NCBI GenBank assembly: GCA_003169895.1
Contig: PNAE01000010.1
Coordinates: forward strand, 1 to 64,000
From: Gemmatimonadota bacterium
GTDB taxonomy: Bacteria; Gemmatimonadota; Gemmatimonadetes; Gemmatimonadales; GWC2-71-9
DNA length: 64,000 nt
Direction of reading: 5' to 3'
This document shows positions 634 through 14,001 of this stretch, piece by piece. The notes beneath the pieces are model-generated. The model saw only the letters and a list, made by a program, of their open reading frames with translations, had not been told where the DNA came from and ran no database searches. Both the position numbers and the translations under genes were made by a program. How positions within the stretch are numbered: position 1 is the first letter of the stretch; each line of letters starts with the position of its first letter.

Positions 634-867
634 TGTATTCGCCACTCATCGCCATTCAGAGCATCTGCTGTGCATCACGCAACCGATTGTCAATCAATGA
701 CTTCTGATTTGTCATCTCACGTTCAATGCGAAGTGCGCCTCGGCTGGCCCACCGCCGCACTGAGTACCGCGCAATGACTCGCCCCAGCTACCCAGCTACA
801 GTTGGTGAAGTCTAGCGTTGACCCGTCCGGCCTGAGACCAGGTTTCCTCGAGGACTATCTTCATTGC

Positions 868-1740
868 ATGCCCCGCTTCGGTCGCATCGCCCTTGCCGGC
901 CGGCCGAACGCCGGGAAATCCTCTCTGCTCAACGCGATCCTCGGTACGCACCTGTCGCTGGTGAGTCCCAAGGCGCAGGCGACCCGCCTCCCGGTCAGCG
1001 GCATTCTGTCCGACGCGGACTCCCAGATCGTGTTCATCGACCTGCCCGGGTTGCTCGAGCCGGCCTACCTCCTGCAGACCCGCATGCGCCAGCTCGCCCT
1101 CGGCGGGCTGCGCACCGCCGACGTCGTCCTCTTCCTGCACCCAGCGCCCGAAGCTCCGGCACCGCCGTTGGCCCAGCTCATCCCCGACGCCCCACCGTTT
1201 ACCGCCGACGTGATCACCGTCTACACCAAGGGTGATCTCGTCACGGCTGGACGCCGTCAGGAACTCGAGGCAACCGGAGCTGTCACGTCGGTCACGAGCC
1301 AGCGCTCGATTGACGCCCTCGTCGTACGGCTCCGGGCTGGGCTGCGCCCCGGTGAGTTCCAGTTCCCGGCCGACGACCTCGCCACCCAGCCGATGAAGTT
1401 CTTCGTCACGGAATACCTCCGTGAAGCGGCGTTCGACGCCCTTGAGGACGAGTTGCCGTACGCGTTCATCGCCGAGGTCGATGAGTACCGCGAGGAACGC
1501 AAGCCGGTATACATTCGGGCGACATTGTACGTCGAACGCGAGTCACAGAAGGGAATCGTGATCGGACATCGAGGCGCCACGCTGCGCAAGATTGGCACCC
1601 ACGCCCGGGTCAGGCTCGAAGCGCTGCTGGGTGAGCAGGTCTATCTGGAGACCTGGGTCAAGGTGCTGCCCGGCTGGCGGCGTAGCGCGGCGGCCCTCGC
1701 CCGGTTTGGATTTCCGGTCACCGCTGACGAGGGCGACTGA
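868..1740 (+). CDS. era: GTPase Era
   Basis: Ribosome-assembly GTPase that binds the 3' end of 16S rRNA during 30S maturation. The protein is 290 aa from the ATG at 868; the frame is open further upstream from a TTG at 802, but the conserved start is [20 protein letters not shown]1 is GRPNAGKSS near residue 11. G3 is DLPG instead of the usual DTPG, and G4 is TKGD instead of NKxD; TKxD is also used by other TRAFAC GTPases. The C-terminal KH domain shows the GxxG motif in [13 protein letters not shown]. The stop overlaps the start of the next gene by one base, suggesting a common transcript. Confidence 0.93.
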
Positions 1741-1913
1741 TGCCAGTCTTGCCAGAGTTGCTTGAGATCCTGGTCTGTCCCAAGTGCAAGGGCGACCTCG
1801 AATACCGGACCGAGCCCGCCGAAGCGCTGGTGTGCCACGCGTGCCGCCTGGTCTACCTGGTCGAAGACGACATTCCCATCATGCTCATCGACGAAGCCAA
1901 GCCGCTCGACTGA
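1740..1913 (+). CDS. Trm112/YcaR-family small zinc-binding-type protein
   Basis: A 57-aa protein beginning [18 protein letters not shown], whose ATG shares its A with the TGA of era. The [12 protein letters not shown] start, the later C-x-x-C pair (CHAC) and the IPIML segment match the Trm112 family (UPF0434/YcaR in bacteria). In eukaryotes and archaea Trm112 activates methyltransferases; the bacterial role is less clear. The overlap with era indicates co-translation. Confidence 0.85.
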
Positions 1914-1924
1914 CCTCTCCGCCG

Positions 1925-3559
1925 ATGACCACTCTCGATCAGCTTCGTGCCGCCGCCGCCGAGGAAGCCGCCGCGCTCGGCTCCGGCTTTGTCGGCTCCG
2001 AACACCTGTTTCTCGCGTGGCTCGGCGCTGCGACCGGCCCCGCCCGCGAGGCGAGCGCCGCCGCCGGCCTTACCGCCGAGGCGTTCCGCTCGCTGCTCGG
2101 CGTGCGAAAGGATCCGGTCAAGCGCGGTGCCGGTACCGGCGACGGCGGCCTGTCGTCGCACGCTCAACGCGCGCTCACGTCGGCACAGGAGATCGCCCAG
2201 GCCGACGGGCGCGACGCCGCGACTGCTGACGATGTGTTGCTCGCCTTGATCCGCGAGCCGCGCGGTGCCATCGCGCGGGCGCTGACCGAGGCCACCCTCA
2301 AACCGAGTCAGTTGAAGGCGATGATTCGCCCGGGCCCGGCGAGGCCGAGCGCTGCCGCCCGGCGGAACGCACCGCCCGCAGCCCCCGCAGCCGAGCGCAT
2401 CACGCCGGCACGCCCGCGGCGCGACCCTGAAATCGACGACATCCCCGAAGCCCGTCCGCCGGCGCGGCCCCGGCTCACCCCGGCGCCAAAGCCCGTCCGG
2501 CCACCACGACCCCGCCGGAGATGGTCACTGCTGTGGGTCCTGTATGTTGCCGTGCCCGTGTCGGTGTGGCTTCACTCCACCGGCGGCAGTCCCTCCGCGC
2601 TGTTCGTCGCCGCGTGCTTCGCCATCGTCCCGCTTGCCGCGCTGATTGCGAACGCCACCGAACAGATCGCTGCACGGAGCGGCCCGATGCTGGGCGCGCT
2701 GCTCAACGCGACATTCGGCAACGCCACTGAGGTGATCGTCGCGATCGCCGCGCTCAACGCCGGGTACATCGAACTCGTCAAGGCAACGCTCACCGGATCG
2801 ATCCTCAGCAACCTGCTGCTGATTCTGGGCCTCGCACTCTTCACGGGCGGGCTGCGCCAGCACACGCTCAAGTTCAGCAGGACGGCGGCGGGGATGAGTG
2901 CGGCGATGCTGGCGCTTGCGGTCGCGGGGCTGATGTTGCCGTCGCTGCTCAACGGCACGCCCGGCGCGCACAGCGTCTATGAACTCTCGCAGATTGTCGC
3001 CGGGGTCCTGGCGGTCACCTATGTCGGTTCGCTGGTCTTCACCATGCGCACGCACAAGCGCCTCTTCGCGGGCGGCGACCATGCCACCGTCGACGGCAAG
3101 CCGTGGCCGCTGGTCGGGGCGATCGTCGCCTTGGGCCTGGCCGCAGCCGTCGTAGCTGTCGAATCCGGATTTCTCGTCGACACTATTGGATCAGCGACGC
3201 AGTCGCTGCACTTGTCCCATGTGTTCCTTGGCCTGATCGTGATCCCGATCGTGGGAAATGCAGCGGAACATGTCAGCGCGATTGTGGCCGCACGGAAGGG
3301 AAGAACGGAACTTGCTGTCCAGATTGCAGTGGGATCGGCCACGCAAGTCGCCTTGCTGGTCGCACCGCTGCTCGTGCTCGCCGGCGTGGCGATGGGACAG
3401 GACGTGACCCTGGTCTTCCCGCCGTTCCAGGTGGCCGCGCTCGGGATCGCGGTGATCGTTTCCGCCGTGGTGACGCTGGACGGCGAGTCCCATTGGCTCG
3501 AAGGCGCGCAGTTGCTGGCGCTGTACGCCATGATCGCCGCGGCCGCCTGGTTCATTTGA
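1925..3559 (+). CDS. ClpN-domain / calcium-proton antiporter fusion
   Basis: A 544-aa protein that appears to fuse two unrelated modules. Residues 1-140 resemble the Clp N-terminal (Clp_N) double repeat, with an FVGSEHLFLAWL segment like the second repeat of the ClpC encoded at 11521. A Pro/Ala/Arg-rich linker follows (about 140-198). Residues 200-544 are a multi-helix CAX-type Ca2+/H+ exchanger with both signature motifs, GNATEV near 264 and GNAAEH near 443. There is no stop or credible internal start between the parts. CAX proteins export cytosolic Ca2+ in exchange for protons; the Clp_N part would be cytosolic and could bind a partner, which is inference. The start is the ATG at 1925, 11 nt after the previous stop. 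Confidence 0.85.
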   Translation: MTTLDQLRAAAAEEAAALGSGFVGSEHLFLAWLGAATGPAREASAAAGLTAEAFRSLLGVRKDPVKRGAGTGDGGLSSHAQRALTSAQEIAQADGRDAATADDVLLALIREPRGAIARALTEATLKPSQLKAMIRPGPARPSAAARRNAPPAAPAAERITPARPRRDPEIDDIPEARPPARPRLTPAPKPVRPPRPRRRWSLLWVLYVAVPVSVWLHSTGGSPSALFVAACFAIVPLAALIANATEQIAARSGPMLGALLNATFGNATEVIVAIAALNAGYIELVKATLTGSILSNLLLILGLALFTGGLRQHTLKFSRTAAGMSAAMLALAVAGLMLPSLLNGTPGAHSVYELSQIVAGVLAVTYVGSLVFTMRTHKRLFAGGDHATVDGKPWPLVGAIVALGLAAAVVAVESGFLVDTIGSATQSLHLSHVFLGLIVIPIVGNAAEHVSAIVAARKGRTELAVQIAVGSATQVALLVAPLLVLAGVAMGQDVTLVFPPFQVAALGIAVIVSAVVTLDGESHWLEGAQLLALYAMIAAAAWFI

Positions 3560-3616: not shown

Positions 3617-4606
3617 GTGCCTCATCAGCGACGCATCATCCTGTATTGCGGCGCCGCTGACCGGCCGCCTCCCGGGCTGATCAGTCGGTGGGCCGAGTCC
3701 CGCAACCTGGGGCTGGAGGTCCACCCCGATCCCGAAGAAGTCGCGACCCTGGTGCTGCGGGGACGGGGGGCGCTTGTCTTCATGGACGAGCGCTCCCGTC
3801 ACCGCGATGGCGTGGCGCTGGTAGGGCGGCTCAAGGCCGACCCCTCCACTGCGATCGTGCCGGTGACGATCCTCACGGACAGGCACGACGCGGCCGCGAT
3901 CGTCGAATGGTACGAAGCCGGTGCCGACGAGGTGCTTTCACCGCTCGTCGACCCGGCCGAGCAACGGGCTCGGCTCGACGCGCTGATCGTGCGAACCGAG
4001 CGGGACGTCGCGGTTCATCCTTCGACGCGGCTTCCCGGCACCAATGAGATCGAACGGGAGATTCGGCGCCGGCTCGACGGCGGCGTGGCGTTCGCGGTCT
4101 GCTACGCCGACCTCGATCACTTCAAGGAGTTCAACGATCGGTACAGCTATTACGACGGCGATCGGGTCATTTACATATTGTCGCGTGTGCTGCACGACGT
4201 CGTGCGCGGGCTGCTGGGGTCGGAGGGATTCGTGGGGCACATCGGCGGCGATGACTTCATCTTCATCACATCGCTGAGCGATTTCGCCCCGGTCTGCACT
4301 GAAATACTGTCGGTGTTCGACGAACTCATCCCGCTCCAGTATAGCGAGCAGGACCGGCGGGCAGGGTATTTTTTCGGGAAGGACCGGCGTGGCCAGTTGC
4401 ACCGGGTGCCATTGATGACGCTGTCCATCGGCGTGGTGACGAATCAGCATCATCGATTCACCCATCCGGCGCAGGTGAGTGAGCTGGCAACCGAGATGAA
4501 GAGTTACGCCAAGACATTGCCGGGCTCCGTTTTCGTGGTCGACCGCCGCCGCGGCGACATGGAGATTCGCAGCGGGCCCGGCGGGCGCGACGCCCGCACC
4601 GCGTGA
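3617..4606 (+). CDS. GGDEF-domain protein with receiver-like N-terminus
   Basis: A 329-aa soluble protein with a GTG start. Residues 1-125 look like a degenerate response-regulator receiver (alternating beta-alpha, a LTDRHD strand end, EAGADEVLSPL like the last helix). Residues 145-310 are a GGDEF domain with the signature GGDDF (within HIGGDDFIFI) and an upstream DLDHFKEFND metal/substrate loop, compatible with diguanylate cyclase activity making c-di-GMP. No RxxD inhibitory site is visible just before GGDDF. It lies 8 nt before the zinc-ribbon gene, so the two are probably co-transcribed. Confidence 0.85.
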   Translation: MPHQRRIILYCGAADRPPPGLISRWAESRNLGLEVHPDPEEVATLVLRGRGALVFMDERSRHRDGVALVGRLKADPSTAIVPVTILTDRHDAAAIVEWYEAGADEVLSPLVDPAEQRARLDALIVRTERDVAVHPSTRLPGTNEIEREIRRRLDGGVAFAVCYADLDHFKEFNDRYSYYDGDRVIYILSRVLHDVVRGLLGSEGFVGHIGGDDFIFITSLSDFAPVCTEILSVFDELIPLQYSEQDRRAGYFFGKDRRGQLHRVPLMTLSIGVVTNQHHRFTHPAQVSELATEMKSYAKTLPGSVFVVDRRRGDMEIRSGPGGRDARTA

Positions 4607-9935: not shown

Positions 9936-9939
<4 letters not shown>

Positions 9940-10451
9940 ACGAGTGCCAGTCATGCCACGAGCGCGAGGCGGTCGTGCAGCTCACCCAGATTGTGGGCGA
10001 TGAGGTCACCACCCTCCATCTCTGCACCAAGTGTGCTGCCGAGCGCGGCATCGACACCGAAGCCGGCGTCGCAGAGACACCGCTGGGGGCGTTTCTGGCC
10101 GCAATGGGGAAGGGCGGGGCGCCCATCGCAGCGGCTGCGGCCGCCGGCGGGACCTGCCCCATGTGCGGCGCCACGCTGTACGACTTCCGTGCGTCGGGCC
10201 GGGTCGGCTGTGCACAGTGCTGGGTCACGTTCGAGCGACCGCTACGCGACCTGCTCCGGCGCCTGCACGGAGCGACCCGCCACACCGGCAAGCCGTACCG
10301 GCCGGTCGATCCCGGCGGGCTTTCCGCGTCCGAGTCGCGGTTGCGGTCGCAGGCCGGCCTGCGGGACGAGCTCCGGATCGCGATCGAAGCCGAGCAGTTC
10401 GAGCGCGCCGCAGAACTTCGCGACCAGCTGCGCGTACTAGAGACATCATGA
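9936..10451 (+). CDS. mcsA: McsA-like activator of protein-arginine kinase
   Basis: A 171-aa protein with two zinc-finger-like pairs at the N-terminus (CQSC...CTKC), a second set in the middle (CPMC...CAQC) and a C-terminal UVR motif (EAEQFERAAELRDQLRVLE). This is the McsA architecture; in Bacillus McsA activates the arginine kinase McsB. The ATGA overlap with mcsB and the following clpC reproduce the Firmicutes order, but no ctsR precedes it. Confidence 0.9.
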
Positions 10452-11524
10452 CTGACGGCACGCTGGTCCCGGACGGCGGAATGCCCTGGCTCGATGCCAG
10501 CGGACCGCAGCCTCATCTGGTGTTGTCCACCCGGGTTCGGCTGGCGCGCAACGTCGCCGGACAGCCGTTCTGGGGCCGGAACACCCCCGAGCAGCGTGAG
10601 AGCATCGTGTCGACGGTGGCAGAGGCCGCGCGTGCGGTGCCGGCGCTCGCCGACGCGACACTATACCGCCTGGACGCGGTGCCGGTCGCGACGCGCCGGT
10701 GGCTGAACGAGCGCCAGCTGGTGTCGCGCGATCTGGCCGGCTTGGACGCGTCCGGGCGGGTGCGCAGCGGCGCGGCATTGCTCCTTGGCCGCTCCGCCAG
10801 CGCGATGATCAATGAGGAAGACCACGTGCGGCTCCAGGGGCTCCGATCCGGCTTCGCACTTGACGCAGCCTACGCCGGCACCGACCGTGTGGACCAGGAG
10901 CTCGGGGTACGGGTTTCCTTCGCCTTCCACCCCGAGTTTGGCTATCTTACGGCGTGTCCGACCAACGTCGGTACCGGCTTGCGCGCATCAGTTCTCATCC
11001 ACCTGCCGGGCCTGGTGCTGACCAAGGAAATCACCAAGGTCCTGCAGGGTCTGGCGCAGGTCGGACTGACCTATCGTGGGCTATTCGGCGAAGGCAGTGA
11101 CGTGCTCGGGCACTTGTTCCAGCTGTCCAACCAGACGACACTCGGGAAATCAGAGCCCGAGCTGCTGGATCACCTTGGCCGGATGGTGCGTCAGGTCATG
11201 GCATACGAGGAGCGGGCGCGGGAGGTCCTCCGTCGGGACGCGCCGGCGGCACTCGAGGACAAGGTCTGGCGGGCATGGGCGCTGTTACGGCACGCGCGCA
11301 CGCTGTCCTTCGATGAAACCGTGAATCTCCTGAGCGGCGTCCGGCTTGGCGTCGGAATGCGGATCCTGCCGGACGTCCCGCTCTATACGTTGAACCGGCT
11401 GCTGGTGCTGGCGCAGACGGCTCACGTGGCACAGGCGGCCGGCACGGGTCTCGACGACGAGGCATTGCCGGAGCACCGCGCCACCTTCGTGCGCCGGATG
11501 TTTGAGGGGGTAGATCGCCCATGA
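10448..11524 (+). CDS. mcsB: Protein-arginine kinase McsB
   Basis: A 358-aa phosphagen-kinase-fold enzyme that phosphorylates arginines on proteins, marking them for ClpC-ClpP. Visible signatures are the N-terminal nucleotide-binding STRVRLARN, the active-site loop NEEDHVRLQ and CPTNVGTGLRASV. The length matches Bacillus McsB. It overlaps clpC by 4 nt, so kinase and unfoldase are made together. The frame is open further upstream, but the ATG at 10448 overlapping the mcsA stop is clearly the start. Confidence 0.95.
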   Translation: MTDGTLVPDGGMPWLDASGPQPHLVLSTRVRLARNVAGQPFWGRNTPEQRESIVSTVAEAARAVPALADATLYRLDAVPVATRRWLNERQLVSRDLAGLDASGRVRSGAALLLGRSASAMINEEDHVRLQGLRSGFALDAAYAGTDRVDQELGVRVSFAFHPEFGYLTACPTNVGTGLRASVLIHLPGLVLTKEITKVLQGLAQVGLTYRGLFGEGSDVLGHLFQLSNQTTLGKSEPELLDHLGRMVRQVMAYEERAREVLRRDAPAALEDKVWRAWALLRHARTLSFDETVNLLSGVRLGVGMRILPDVPLYTLNRLLVLAQTAHVAQAAGTGLDDEALPEHRATFVRRMFEGVDRP

Positions 11525-14001
11525 ATGGTTACAACTTTACCGACCGCGTACGCAAAGTGTTGCAGATGGCGCGCGAGGAAGCTGCGCGCCTGCATCACGA
11601 GTACGTCGGCACCGAGCACATCCTGCTGGGACTCATCCGCGAAGGGGAGGGGGTCGCCGCCGCGGTGCTGACCAACCTGGGGGTCGAGCTCGAGGAGATC
11701 CAGCAAAAAATCGAGGAGACAGTCAAGAAGGGGAAGGCCGCCGCGGCTGCGGGGCCGGAACTGCCCTATACGTCACGCGCGAAGAAGGTGCTCGAGTTGG
11801 CGATGATGGAAGCGCGCGAGTTGAATCACTCCTACGTCGGCACGGAGCATCTGTTGCTCGGGTTGCTGCGTGAGGAAAAAGGCATCGCGGCACAGGTGCT
11901 CACCGACGCCGGCGTCACGCTGGAACAGTCCCGGGCCGAAACGTTGCGCCTGCTCGGCAGCGACCTGCCGCAGGGCCAGCCGAGTGGTGCCCCGGCCGCC
12001 AGCGGCCCGCAGGCCGTCCCGCCGAAGACCGAGAAGAAATCCAAGACGCCCGCGCTCGATCACTTCTGTCGCGACCTGACGGTGCTCGCCGCCGAGGGCG
12101 AGCTTGATCCCACGATCGGTCGCGCCAAGGAAATCGAGCGCGTGATGGAAATCCTCGCCCGGCGCAAGAAGAACAATCCGGTGCTGATCGGTGAGCCGGG
12201 CGTGGGCAAGACGGCGATCGTCGAGGGCCTCGCGCTGTTGATTGCCAACGGGCAATGCCCCGACGTGCTGCGCGACCATCGGGTCCTGTCGCTGGACATG
12301 GCCGCCGTCATTGCCGGAACGAAGTATCGCGGCCAGTTCGAGGAGCGTCTCAAGGCGGTGATGAACGAGATCGCGCAGAGCAAGAACGTGATCCTGTTCA
12401 TCGACGAATTGCACACGTTGGTCGGCGCGGGTGCCGCCGAAGGCGCGATCGACGCGTCCAACATGCTCAAGCCGGCGCTCGCGCGCGGGGAACTGCAATG
12501 CGTCGGCGCCTCGACCCTCAACGAGTATCGCAAGTACATCGAAAAGGATGGCGCGCTGGAACGGCGCTTCCAGACCGTCGTGGTCGATCCGCCGTCGGTC
12601 CTGGAGACGATCGAGATCCTCAAGGGTCTGCGCAAGAAATATGAGGATCATCATCGGGTCACCATTCCCGACGCCACCCTCAAGGTGGCCGCCGAGCTGG
12701 CGGACCGTTACATCACGGACCGGTTCCTGCCGGACAAGGCGATCGACGTCATCGACGAGGCGGGCGCACGCGCGCGGCTGGCATCACAGCATCCGCCTGC
12801 CGAAATCGGCGAGCTCAAGACGCAGCTGGAACTGGTGACCGCCGAAAAGGAAGAGTCGGTCCGCGACCAGAATTTCGAAAAGGCGGCGGCGCTGCGGGAT
12901 CGCGAACGCGACCTGCAGGCCCAAATCCGCCAGGTGCAGATCGAGTGGGAGGCCGAACGTCAGACCAAACGGCCGGTGATCGACGAAGAGGCAATCGCGT
13001 TCATCGTGGGCCGCTGGACCGGGATTCCGGTCACTCGCATTCAGGAGGCGGAAGCGTCGCGGCTCCTGCGCATGGAAGACGAGATTCACGTCTCCGTAAT
13101 CGGCCAGGACGAGGCGATCCATGCCGTATCGCGCGCCATCCGGCGGTCGCGTGCCGGGCTCAAGGACCCCAACCGTCCGATCGGATCGTTCATCTTCTCC
13201 GGACCCACCGGCGTGGGCAAGACCGAACTGGCGCGGGCACTGGCGCGGTTCCTGTTCAATGACCCCAGCGCGCTGATCCGGGTTGACATGTCCGAGTACA
13301 TGGAGAAGTTCTCGGTGTCGCGCCTGATCGGCGCACCGCCGGGCTACGTCGGGTACGAGGACTCCGGTACGCTGACCAAGGCGGTGCGCCGCAAGCCGTA
13401 CTCCGTTGTGCTGCTCGACGAGATCGAGAAGGCACACCCGGACGTATTCAATATCCTGCTGCAGGTACTCGACGAGGGCCACCTCACCGACAACTACGGC
13501 CGGGTGATTGACTTCAAGAACACCGTGGTCATCATGACCTCGAACGTGGGCGCGCGCGACATCCTGAAGGGGAGCTCGCTGGGGTTCCATGCCGGCGACG
13601 CGAAGCACACGTTCGAGAAGATGGCCGAGGTGGTCAAGGACGAGATCGGCAAGGTGTTCAACCCCGAGTTCCTCAACCGACTCGACGACGTAATCGTCTT
13701 CCATCCACTCACGCGCGAGCATATCGCGCTGATCGTCACCGTGCTGCTGCGCGATGTGACCCGTCGCGTGGGCGATGACGTCAAGCTGACGCAGGCGGCG
13801 CTGGACTTCCTGGTCGATCACGGCTTCGATCAGAACTACGGCGCCCGACCACTGCGTCGCGCCATCCAGCGCTATGTCGAGGACCCGCTCAGCGAGCGGA
13901 TCCTGAGCGGCGACTTCACGGCAGGCGACGAGATCGAGGTGGATGTCGCGCCCGAGCGAGACAAGCTGGTGTTCCGCGCCCTGACGGGTACCGGCGCCTG
14001 A
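11521..14001 (+). CDS. clpC: ATP-dependent Clp protease ATP-binding subunit ClpC
   Basis: An 826-aa AAA+ unfoldase. It has two Clp_N repeats (residues 1-150, each with YVGTEH), the first AAA module (Walker A GEPGVGKT near 222), a middle domain with a UVR motif ([18 protein letters not shown]) and the second AAA module (Walker A GPTGVGKT near 562, [14 protein letters not shown] sensor region). The UVR-containing middle domain distinguishes ClpC from ClpB. It is expected to dock on ClpP and degrade arginine-phosphorylated proteins. ATG overlaps the mcsB stop. Confidence 0.96.

Follow-up and report, generated by a model that had tools for sequence, protein, structure and literature searches.

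A ClpC-type Clp_N domain fused to a CAX-type exchanger in one family of Gemmatimonadota

Two described systems come closest to the gene reported here, the CAX exchangers and the N-terminal (Clp_N) domain of ClpC. In plant CAX1, all residues before the first transmembrane helix (TM1) inhibit the exchanger, while Bacillus subtilis YfkE has none there (PMC9310016); signalling in plants by a CAX1 module deficient in transport has also been reported (PMC12366789). Ligands of the ClpC N-domain are unfolded segments, adaptors and phosphoarginine (PMC12583610). Within this domain, residue E32 is a determinant of the pArg2 pocket, while E106 lies in pArg1, the pocket that matters most when phosphoarginine activates ClpC; K85 serves as the anchor of the N-domain on AAA1 and is contacted by all the cyclic peptides (PMC12583610). 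Both parts of the gene belong to known families; their combination, its conservation and the pseudo-exchanger case described below are, as far as could be checked, undescribed in the open-licence literature, in which we found no paper on the Clp_N and CAX domain pair. The gene lies in a 64,000-nucleotide stretch of a Gemmatimonadota contig (the window), and its features are collected in Table 1.

Table 1. Features of the fusion gene and its surroundings, in coordinates of the window
Feature	Position	Strand	Basis and remarks
era GTPase gene, upstream neighbour	802-1740	+	MMR_HSR1 and KH_2; slot marker in relatives
Trm112-like small zinc-ribbon gene	1741-1914	+	CPKC/CHAC pattern; conserved neighbour; ends 10 nt before the fusion
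Clp_N-CAX fusion gene	1925-3559	+	544 aa plus stop; single open frame; Pfam Clp_N and Na_Ca_ex; TIGR00378
Clp_N domain, two four-helix repeats	1931-2326	+	residues ~3-134; AlphaFold2 mean pLDDT 85; PDB matches at TM ~0.7
GSEHLF motif, repeat 1	1994-2011	+	E26 at the position of ClpC E32 (pArg2 pocket)
Disordered Pro/Arg/Ala-rich linker	2327-2524	+	residues 135-200; pLDDT ~48; 19 Pro and 16 Arg in 66 residues
CAX Ca2+/H+ exchanger core	2528-3556	+	residues ~202-544; pLDDT ~95; matches Vcx1, Arabidopsis CAX1 and YfkE
First ion-binding motif, GNATE	2717-2731	+	residues 265-269; translation, alignment
Second ion-binding motif, GNAAEH	3254-3271	+	residues 444-449; translation, alignment
Receiver-GGDEF gene, downstream neighbour	3617-4606	+	Pfam, synteny; conserved in the slot
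mcsA, mcsB and clpC	9936-14001	+	mcsA 9936-10451, mcsB ~10469-11524, clpC 11521-14001; order conserved with or without the fusion

The fusion protein and its two halves

The translation runs without interruption from the ATG at 1925 to the stop at 3557-3559, which bears out the first-pass annotation in that a continuous frame joins a Clp_N part to an entire CAX exchanger that has both GNA-E motifs. What that annotation had called a ClpC-like N-terminal repeat is indeed ClpC-like in sequence, but it is a complete two-repeat domain rather than a single repeat. Pfam finds Clp_N in two stretches of the whole protein (E 4.7e-11; PF02861 at 43.1 bits against a gathering cut-off of 20.7), and the match sharpens to E 3.8e-12 when residues 1-200 are searched alone. 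The only other Pfam match is Na_Ca_ex (E 3.7e-37); AAA+ modules are absent, and the protein is therefore no ClpC ATPase.

An AlphaFold2 model of residues 1-142 (mean pLDDT 85) comprises eight helices in two repeats, the first formed by residues 4-17, 25-35, 39-46 and 51-58 and the second by residues 78-93, 101-108, 115-122 and 127-134. Its closest PDB structures, 5HBN and the MecA complex 2Y1R among them, are all ClpC N-domains (TM ~0.7), a fold support that is not fully independent, considering that the small alignments behind the models held one ClpC row. The first-pass annotation had named failure of the structural comparison as a result that would overturn its reading, and the model instead matches ClpC N-domain structures. 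By sequence, too, the N-terminal part finds solved ClpC N-domains (top E 2.1e-8), at about 25-35% identity between the Clp_N of the fusion and ClpC. In the full-length model, a confident Clp_N domain is followed by disorder from about residue 135 to 200 and then by a confident exchanger.

The exchanger half scores 311 bits against the NCBIfam equivalog model TIGR00378 'cax', for which the curated cut-off is 211. By sequence, the core matches Vcx1 (E 2.3e-66), YfkE (8e-57) and CAX1 (6e-54), and its predicted fold aligns with those of the same three proteins at TMt 0.78-0.95. Both ion-binding motifs are present in the source protein, which is not the case for one orthologue discussed below (G061). 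From these matches, we assign this half to the CAX-type Ca2+/H+ exchangers and predict that it acts in the cytoplasmic membrane. In all 23 fused proteins found, the 25 residues before TM1 contain 2-9 Arg or Lys, against 0-1 in the loop between TM1 and TM2. Since an Arg-rich stretch precedes TM1 and the loop carries few or no charges, the positive-inside rule places the N-terminus, with Clp_N, probably in the cytosol. In other words, sequence and model describe a membrane calcium/proton exchanger, as predicted, that bears a ClpC-type substrate-recognition domain on a flexible tether.

Distribution, gene order and origin

Searching for the domain pair across genomes, as the first-pass annotation had proposed, we found the Clp_N-CAX architecture in 23 genomes from 12 genera, all within one Gemmatimonadota family and at the same locus wherever this was checked. 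In the source genus, it is complete (54-76% identity) in every genome except those where a contig end truncates the gene (G002 and G006) or a frameshift interrupts it (G003); Clp_N is still detectable in G006 and G003. The frameshift in G003 (L059; G003:C374:2208-3720) splits the fusion between linker and exchanger and reflects either assembly error or decay. A Clp_N profile partly built from fused sequences, with about ten fused proteins outside it, separated the proteins bimodally and without overlap, at E <= 8.3e-19 for those with the fusion and a best E of 2.3 for those without. Beyond the family, the genomes sampled from elsewhere in the order, the class and the phylum yielded no fusion, and neither did the exchangers fetched from other phyla. 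A scan of one genome per species over 84,980 species, which seeds on short exact patterns and could let distant independent fusions escape, has at least two fusions among the matches listed (L004 and L005), both in Gemmatimonadota and with the sequences already known from G009 and G001. Independent assemblies carry the fusion, which rules out a sequencing artefact; the objection raised in the first-pass annotation, that a sequencing or assembly error had joined two genes, is accordingly rejected.

Three other Clp_N proteins were encountered in these genomes. One, in a genome of the family that lacks the CAX fusion (L094:6131-7087 (+), G019:C82), joins a Clp_N close to that of ClpC to an apparent GntR-type winged-helix regulator; it is reminiscent of the repressor ClpC2 and represents another reuse of Clp_N outside the ATPase. 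The source genome encodes a small protein of at most 86 aa with a single Clp_N repeat (L105:6715-6972 (-), around G000:C8:309744-309884), and in another family of the order one genome encodes a Clp_N-like protein that stands alone, reaches at most 175 aa and has a degenerate first repeat (L095:5748-6272 (-), G045:C25).

In the fused genomes examined, the gene occupies a conserved slot in the order era - Trm112-like - exchanger - receiver-GGDEF - zinc-ribbon - prfB - lysS - lolC - lolD - mcsA - mcsB - clpC. The Trm112-like gene is named by its CPKC/CHAC pattern and gave no Pfam match at E<=1, and the receiver-like part of the GGDEF protein scores below the Pfam cut-off; the latter gene adjoins the exchanger whether fused or unfused. 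The mcsA-mcsB-clpC genes had been placed 8 kb downstream, a distance that holds from the start of the fusion gene to mcsA (8.0 kb) but shrinks to 6.4 kb when measured from its end. The same proximity had been read as a sign of functional linkage, and this reading does not stand. Unfused CAX genes occupy the slot, about 9 kb upstream of clpC, in two genomes of the same family as the source (G013 and G024) and in three that belong to the order but to other families (G039, G041 and G042), and three further genomes have the slot without any exchanger (G015, G028 and G036). The gene order near clpC therefore predates the fusion, and, being ancestral, the 8-9 kb distance to clpC is silent on what the fusion does.

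A maximum-likelihood tree of the exchanger core, from which G061 and G047 were left out as two very long branches placed unreliably, implies two state changes, for which the simplest account is a single gain within the family plus a single loss, in G013. The data do not reject placing every fused row in one clade (p-AU 0.125), and the tree thus fits a single origin of the fusion. The domain may have arisen as a copy of the 5' end of the neighbouring clpC, a proposal to which the Clp_N tree, based on 150 residues and too weakly resolved to identify a donor, lends no support either way.

Pocket residues, constraint and the possible role of the Clp_N domain

The fused proteins were aligned to ClpC using a B. 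subtilis row that we take to be correct and that agrees with the PDB chain wherever both are shown. The Glu-His pair of repeat 1 (ClpC E32-H33) is invariant in the 22 proteins that cover the site; the T81 position is Ser or Thr in 22 of 23 and the K86 position Arg or Lys in all 23, and the repeat-2 motifs S/T-x-x-A-x-R and P-R/K-G are nearly invariant. The pArg1 glutamate, E106, is retained in 8 of 23 (it is Asp in the source protein), K85 in a single one, with Q, R, E or another residue in the remaining 22, and T7 and R9 are lost in the source genus. With E106 and K85 not conserved, the fused Clp_N is no faithful copy of the ClpC head: the pair of pocket glutamates that would mark a ClpC-type phosphoarginine reader, E32 and E106, is not kept, and at most one of the two pockets may survive. 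An EH motif belongs to the general Clp_N consensus and is present in ClpA too, which is why E26 was rejected as proof of phosphoarginine binding; the motif could be structural only.

We next consider how the two halves have evolved. For Clp_N, the three closest pairs give dN/dS values of 0.085, 0.087 and 0.17; in the same pairs the linker spans 0.15-0.56 and the exchanger 0.05-0.18. These figures are rough, as dS exceeds 0.5 and is often greater than 1. Clp_N changes more quickly than the exchanger, yet it is clearly constrained. In one lineage, this relation is reversed. The G061 orthologue (L093:9340-11163 (-), G061:C2:286339-288162), on a 358-kb contig of a 95% complete genome, sits at the same slot and is open throughout its 608 aa from the ATG, but the first GNA-E motif reads GNTAT, with Thr in place of Glu, and the second has changed from GNAAEH to AALPER, in which Gly-Asn has become Ala-Ala and Glu is kept. 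Its genus-mates G093 and G095 have Glu and Asn intact at both motifs, and are 52% identical to each other in Clp_N and 75% in the exchanger, whereas G061 is 54-56% identical to them in Clp_N and only 37-38% in the exchanger. The exchanger half of G061 is no longer constrained while its Clp_N still is, in one genome and one event, and the protein is likely a pseudo-exchanger. The gene could alternatively be in early decay, against which its open frame and conserved Clp_N argue. The retention of Clp_N after loss of the exchanger motifs suggests a role beyond the gating of transport, that is, a function independent of ion transport that, to judge from this one genome, might need only a membrane anchor. 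In G013, on the other hand, an intact CAX occupies the slot without Clp_N, so Clp_N is not needed for transport; taking both genomes together, the two halves are separable.

Our leading proposal, to which we would give somewhat less than an even chance, is that the fused Clp_N mimics the ClpC N-domain from a membrane tether on the cytosolic side, binding ClpC-type ligands and thereby controlling the exchanger. It combines the N-terminal inhibition of plant CAX with ligand binding by the ClpC N-domain. Held at the presumably cytosolic N-terminus by its flexible Pro/Arg-rich linker, the domain would act as a tethered module for unfolded segments, adaptors or, via the one retained pocket, phosphoarginine. 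Occupancy would change exchanger activity, similar to the N-terminal regulatory region of plant CAX1, and the domain might also enrich such ligands near the membrane; we favour less the idea that it recruits ClpC directly. We count for the proposal the complete fold, the conservation in 23 genomes, the low Clp_N dN/dS (0.085-0.17), the probably cytosolic N-terminus, the invariant E32-H33 with the well-kept T81 and K86 positions, the plant CAX1 precedent and the Clp_N kept in G061, and against it the losses of E106, K85, T7 and R9, an EH motif that may be no more than structural, the roughness of dN/dS at high dS and the intact CAX without Clp_N in G013. A pure gating model also leaves the G061 case, with its implied transport-free function, unexplained.

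Among the alternatives, the one that survives best, although rather unlikely, is that Clp_N was adopted as a helical module, either to oligomerise or to dock some partner with no relation to ClpC. This would suit a domain that has drifted far from ClpC, with one ligand pocket not conserved, and that is reused elsewhere in the family, as with the regulator in G019; mycobacterial ClpC2, moreover, dimerises via its own N-terminal domain (PMC10030653). The near-invariance of the EH, S/T-x-x-A-x-R and P-R/K-G motifs, however, exceeds what a generic helical spacer needs.

It is less probable still that Clp_N brings ClpCP or its adaptors to the membrane, whether to have the exchanger degraded under stress or to provide the protease with a membrane station. 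Genes for ClpC, McsA and McsB do share the conserved cluster with the fusion, but that neighbourhood is older than the fusion. Proteins consisting of Clp_N only are known in the form of ClpT. ClpT1 is an accessory (adaptor) protein that attaches to the plastid Clp protease (PMC4243950), and N-domains touch M-domains in the ClpC resting state (PMC12583610); the contact residues are nevertheless poorly kept in the fusion, where K85 is replaced and, in the source genus, T7 and R9 are gone.

We regard as improbable a third explanation, in which Clp_N serves as a membrane-bound decoy for peptides or natural products that target the ClpC N-domain. The precedent is mycobacterial ClpC2, a partial homologue of ClpC1 that binds cyclomarin and protects against it (PMC10030653), and the retention of Clp_N in G061 while the transporter decays is what would be expected of a decoy. 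However, the shared peptide contact K85 (PMC12583610) is not conserved, and a membrane exchanger makes an odd carrier for a sponge, all the more as it is under strong constraint in other lineages. Finally, that the extra domain is functionless and persists by chance is very improbable: the fast-evolving linker (dN/dS up to 0.56 in close pairs) and the one loss of Clp_N would agree with it, but the fusion is intact across 12 genera, its Clp_N is constrained in the closest pairs, and in G061 the exchanger has lost ion-binding residues while Clp_N persists.

Returning to the ligand-binding proposal, its furthest extension would be that Clp_N reads the load of damaged or phosphoarginine-marked protein and sets calcium efflux accordingly, and that at least one lineage has turned the protein into a pseudo-transporter that anchors Clp_N. 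In this full form we consider it unlikely, although the architecture does suggest that a sensor of protein damage may be coupled to a calcium transporter, and calcium export may be linked to protein quality control as put forward in the first-pass annotation. The fusion would give bacteria a CAX with a folded N-terminal domain of its own, one of a kind known from a protease whose N-domain is currently pursued as a drug target, and it would permit a direct test of coupling between protein damage and calcium in bacteria. The clade offers natural controls in the form of relatives without Clp_N at the same locus and of one with Clp_N and a degenerate exchanger.

Comparison with known systems

The exchanger core, with its predicted fold and both GNA-E motifs, is like those of Vcx1, YfkE and Arabidopsis CAX1. 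Unlike YfkE, which has nothing there, the fusion places about 200 residues with a folded Clp_N before TM1, whereas the corresponding part of plant CAX1 is a short regulatory region without Clp_N. The likeness to the plant N-terminal region is one of position, as it comprises everything before TM1 and is regulatory in plants (PMC9310016); there is no sequence relation, and the plant region is probably disordered, whereas the fusion carries a folded domain on a disordered tether. The Clp_N domain shares its two-repeat, eight-helix fold (TM ~0.7) and E32-H33 with the N-domains of ClpC from B. subtilis and Staphylococcus aureus and of Mycobacterium tuberculosis ClpC1. Unlike ClpC, the fusion lacks AAA+ modules, is attached to a transporter and does not conserve the pArg1 glutamate or K85. 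Mycobacterial ClpC2 likewise uses Clp_N outside the ClpC ATPase, but it binds DNA and represses its own gene (PMC10030653), whereas the fusion is predicted to be a membrane exchanger.
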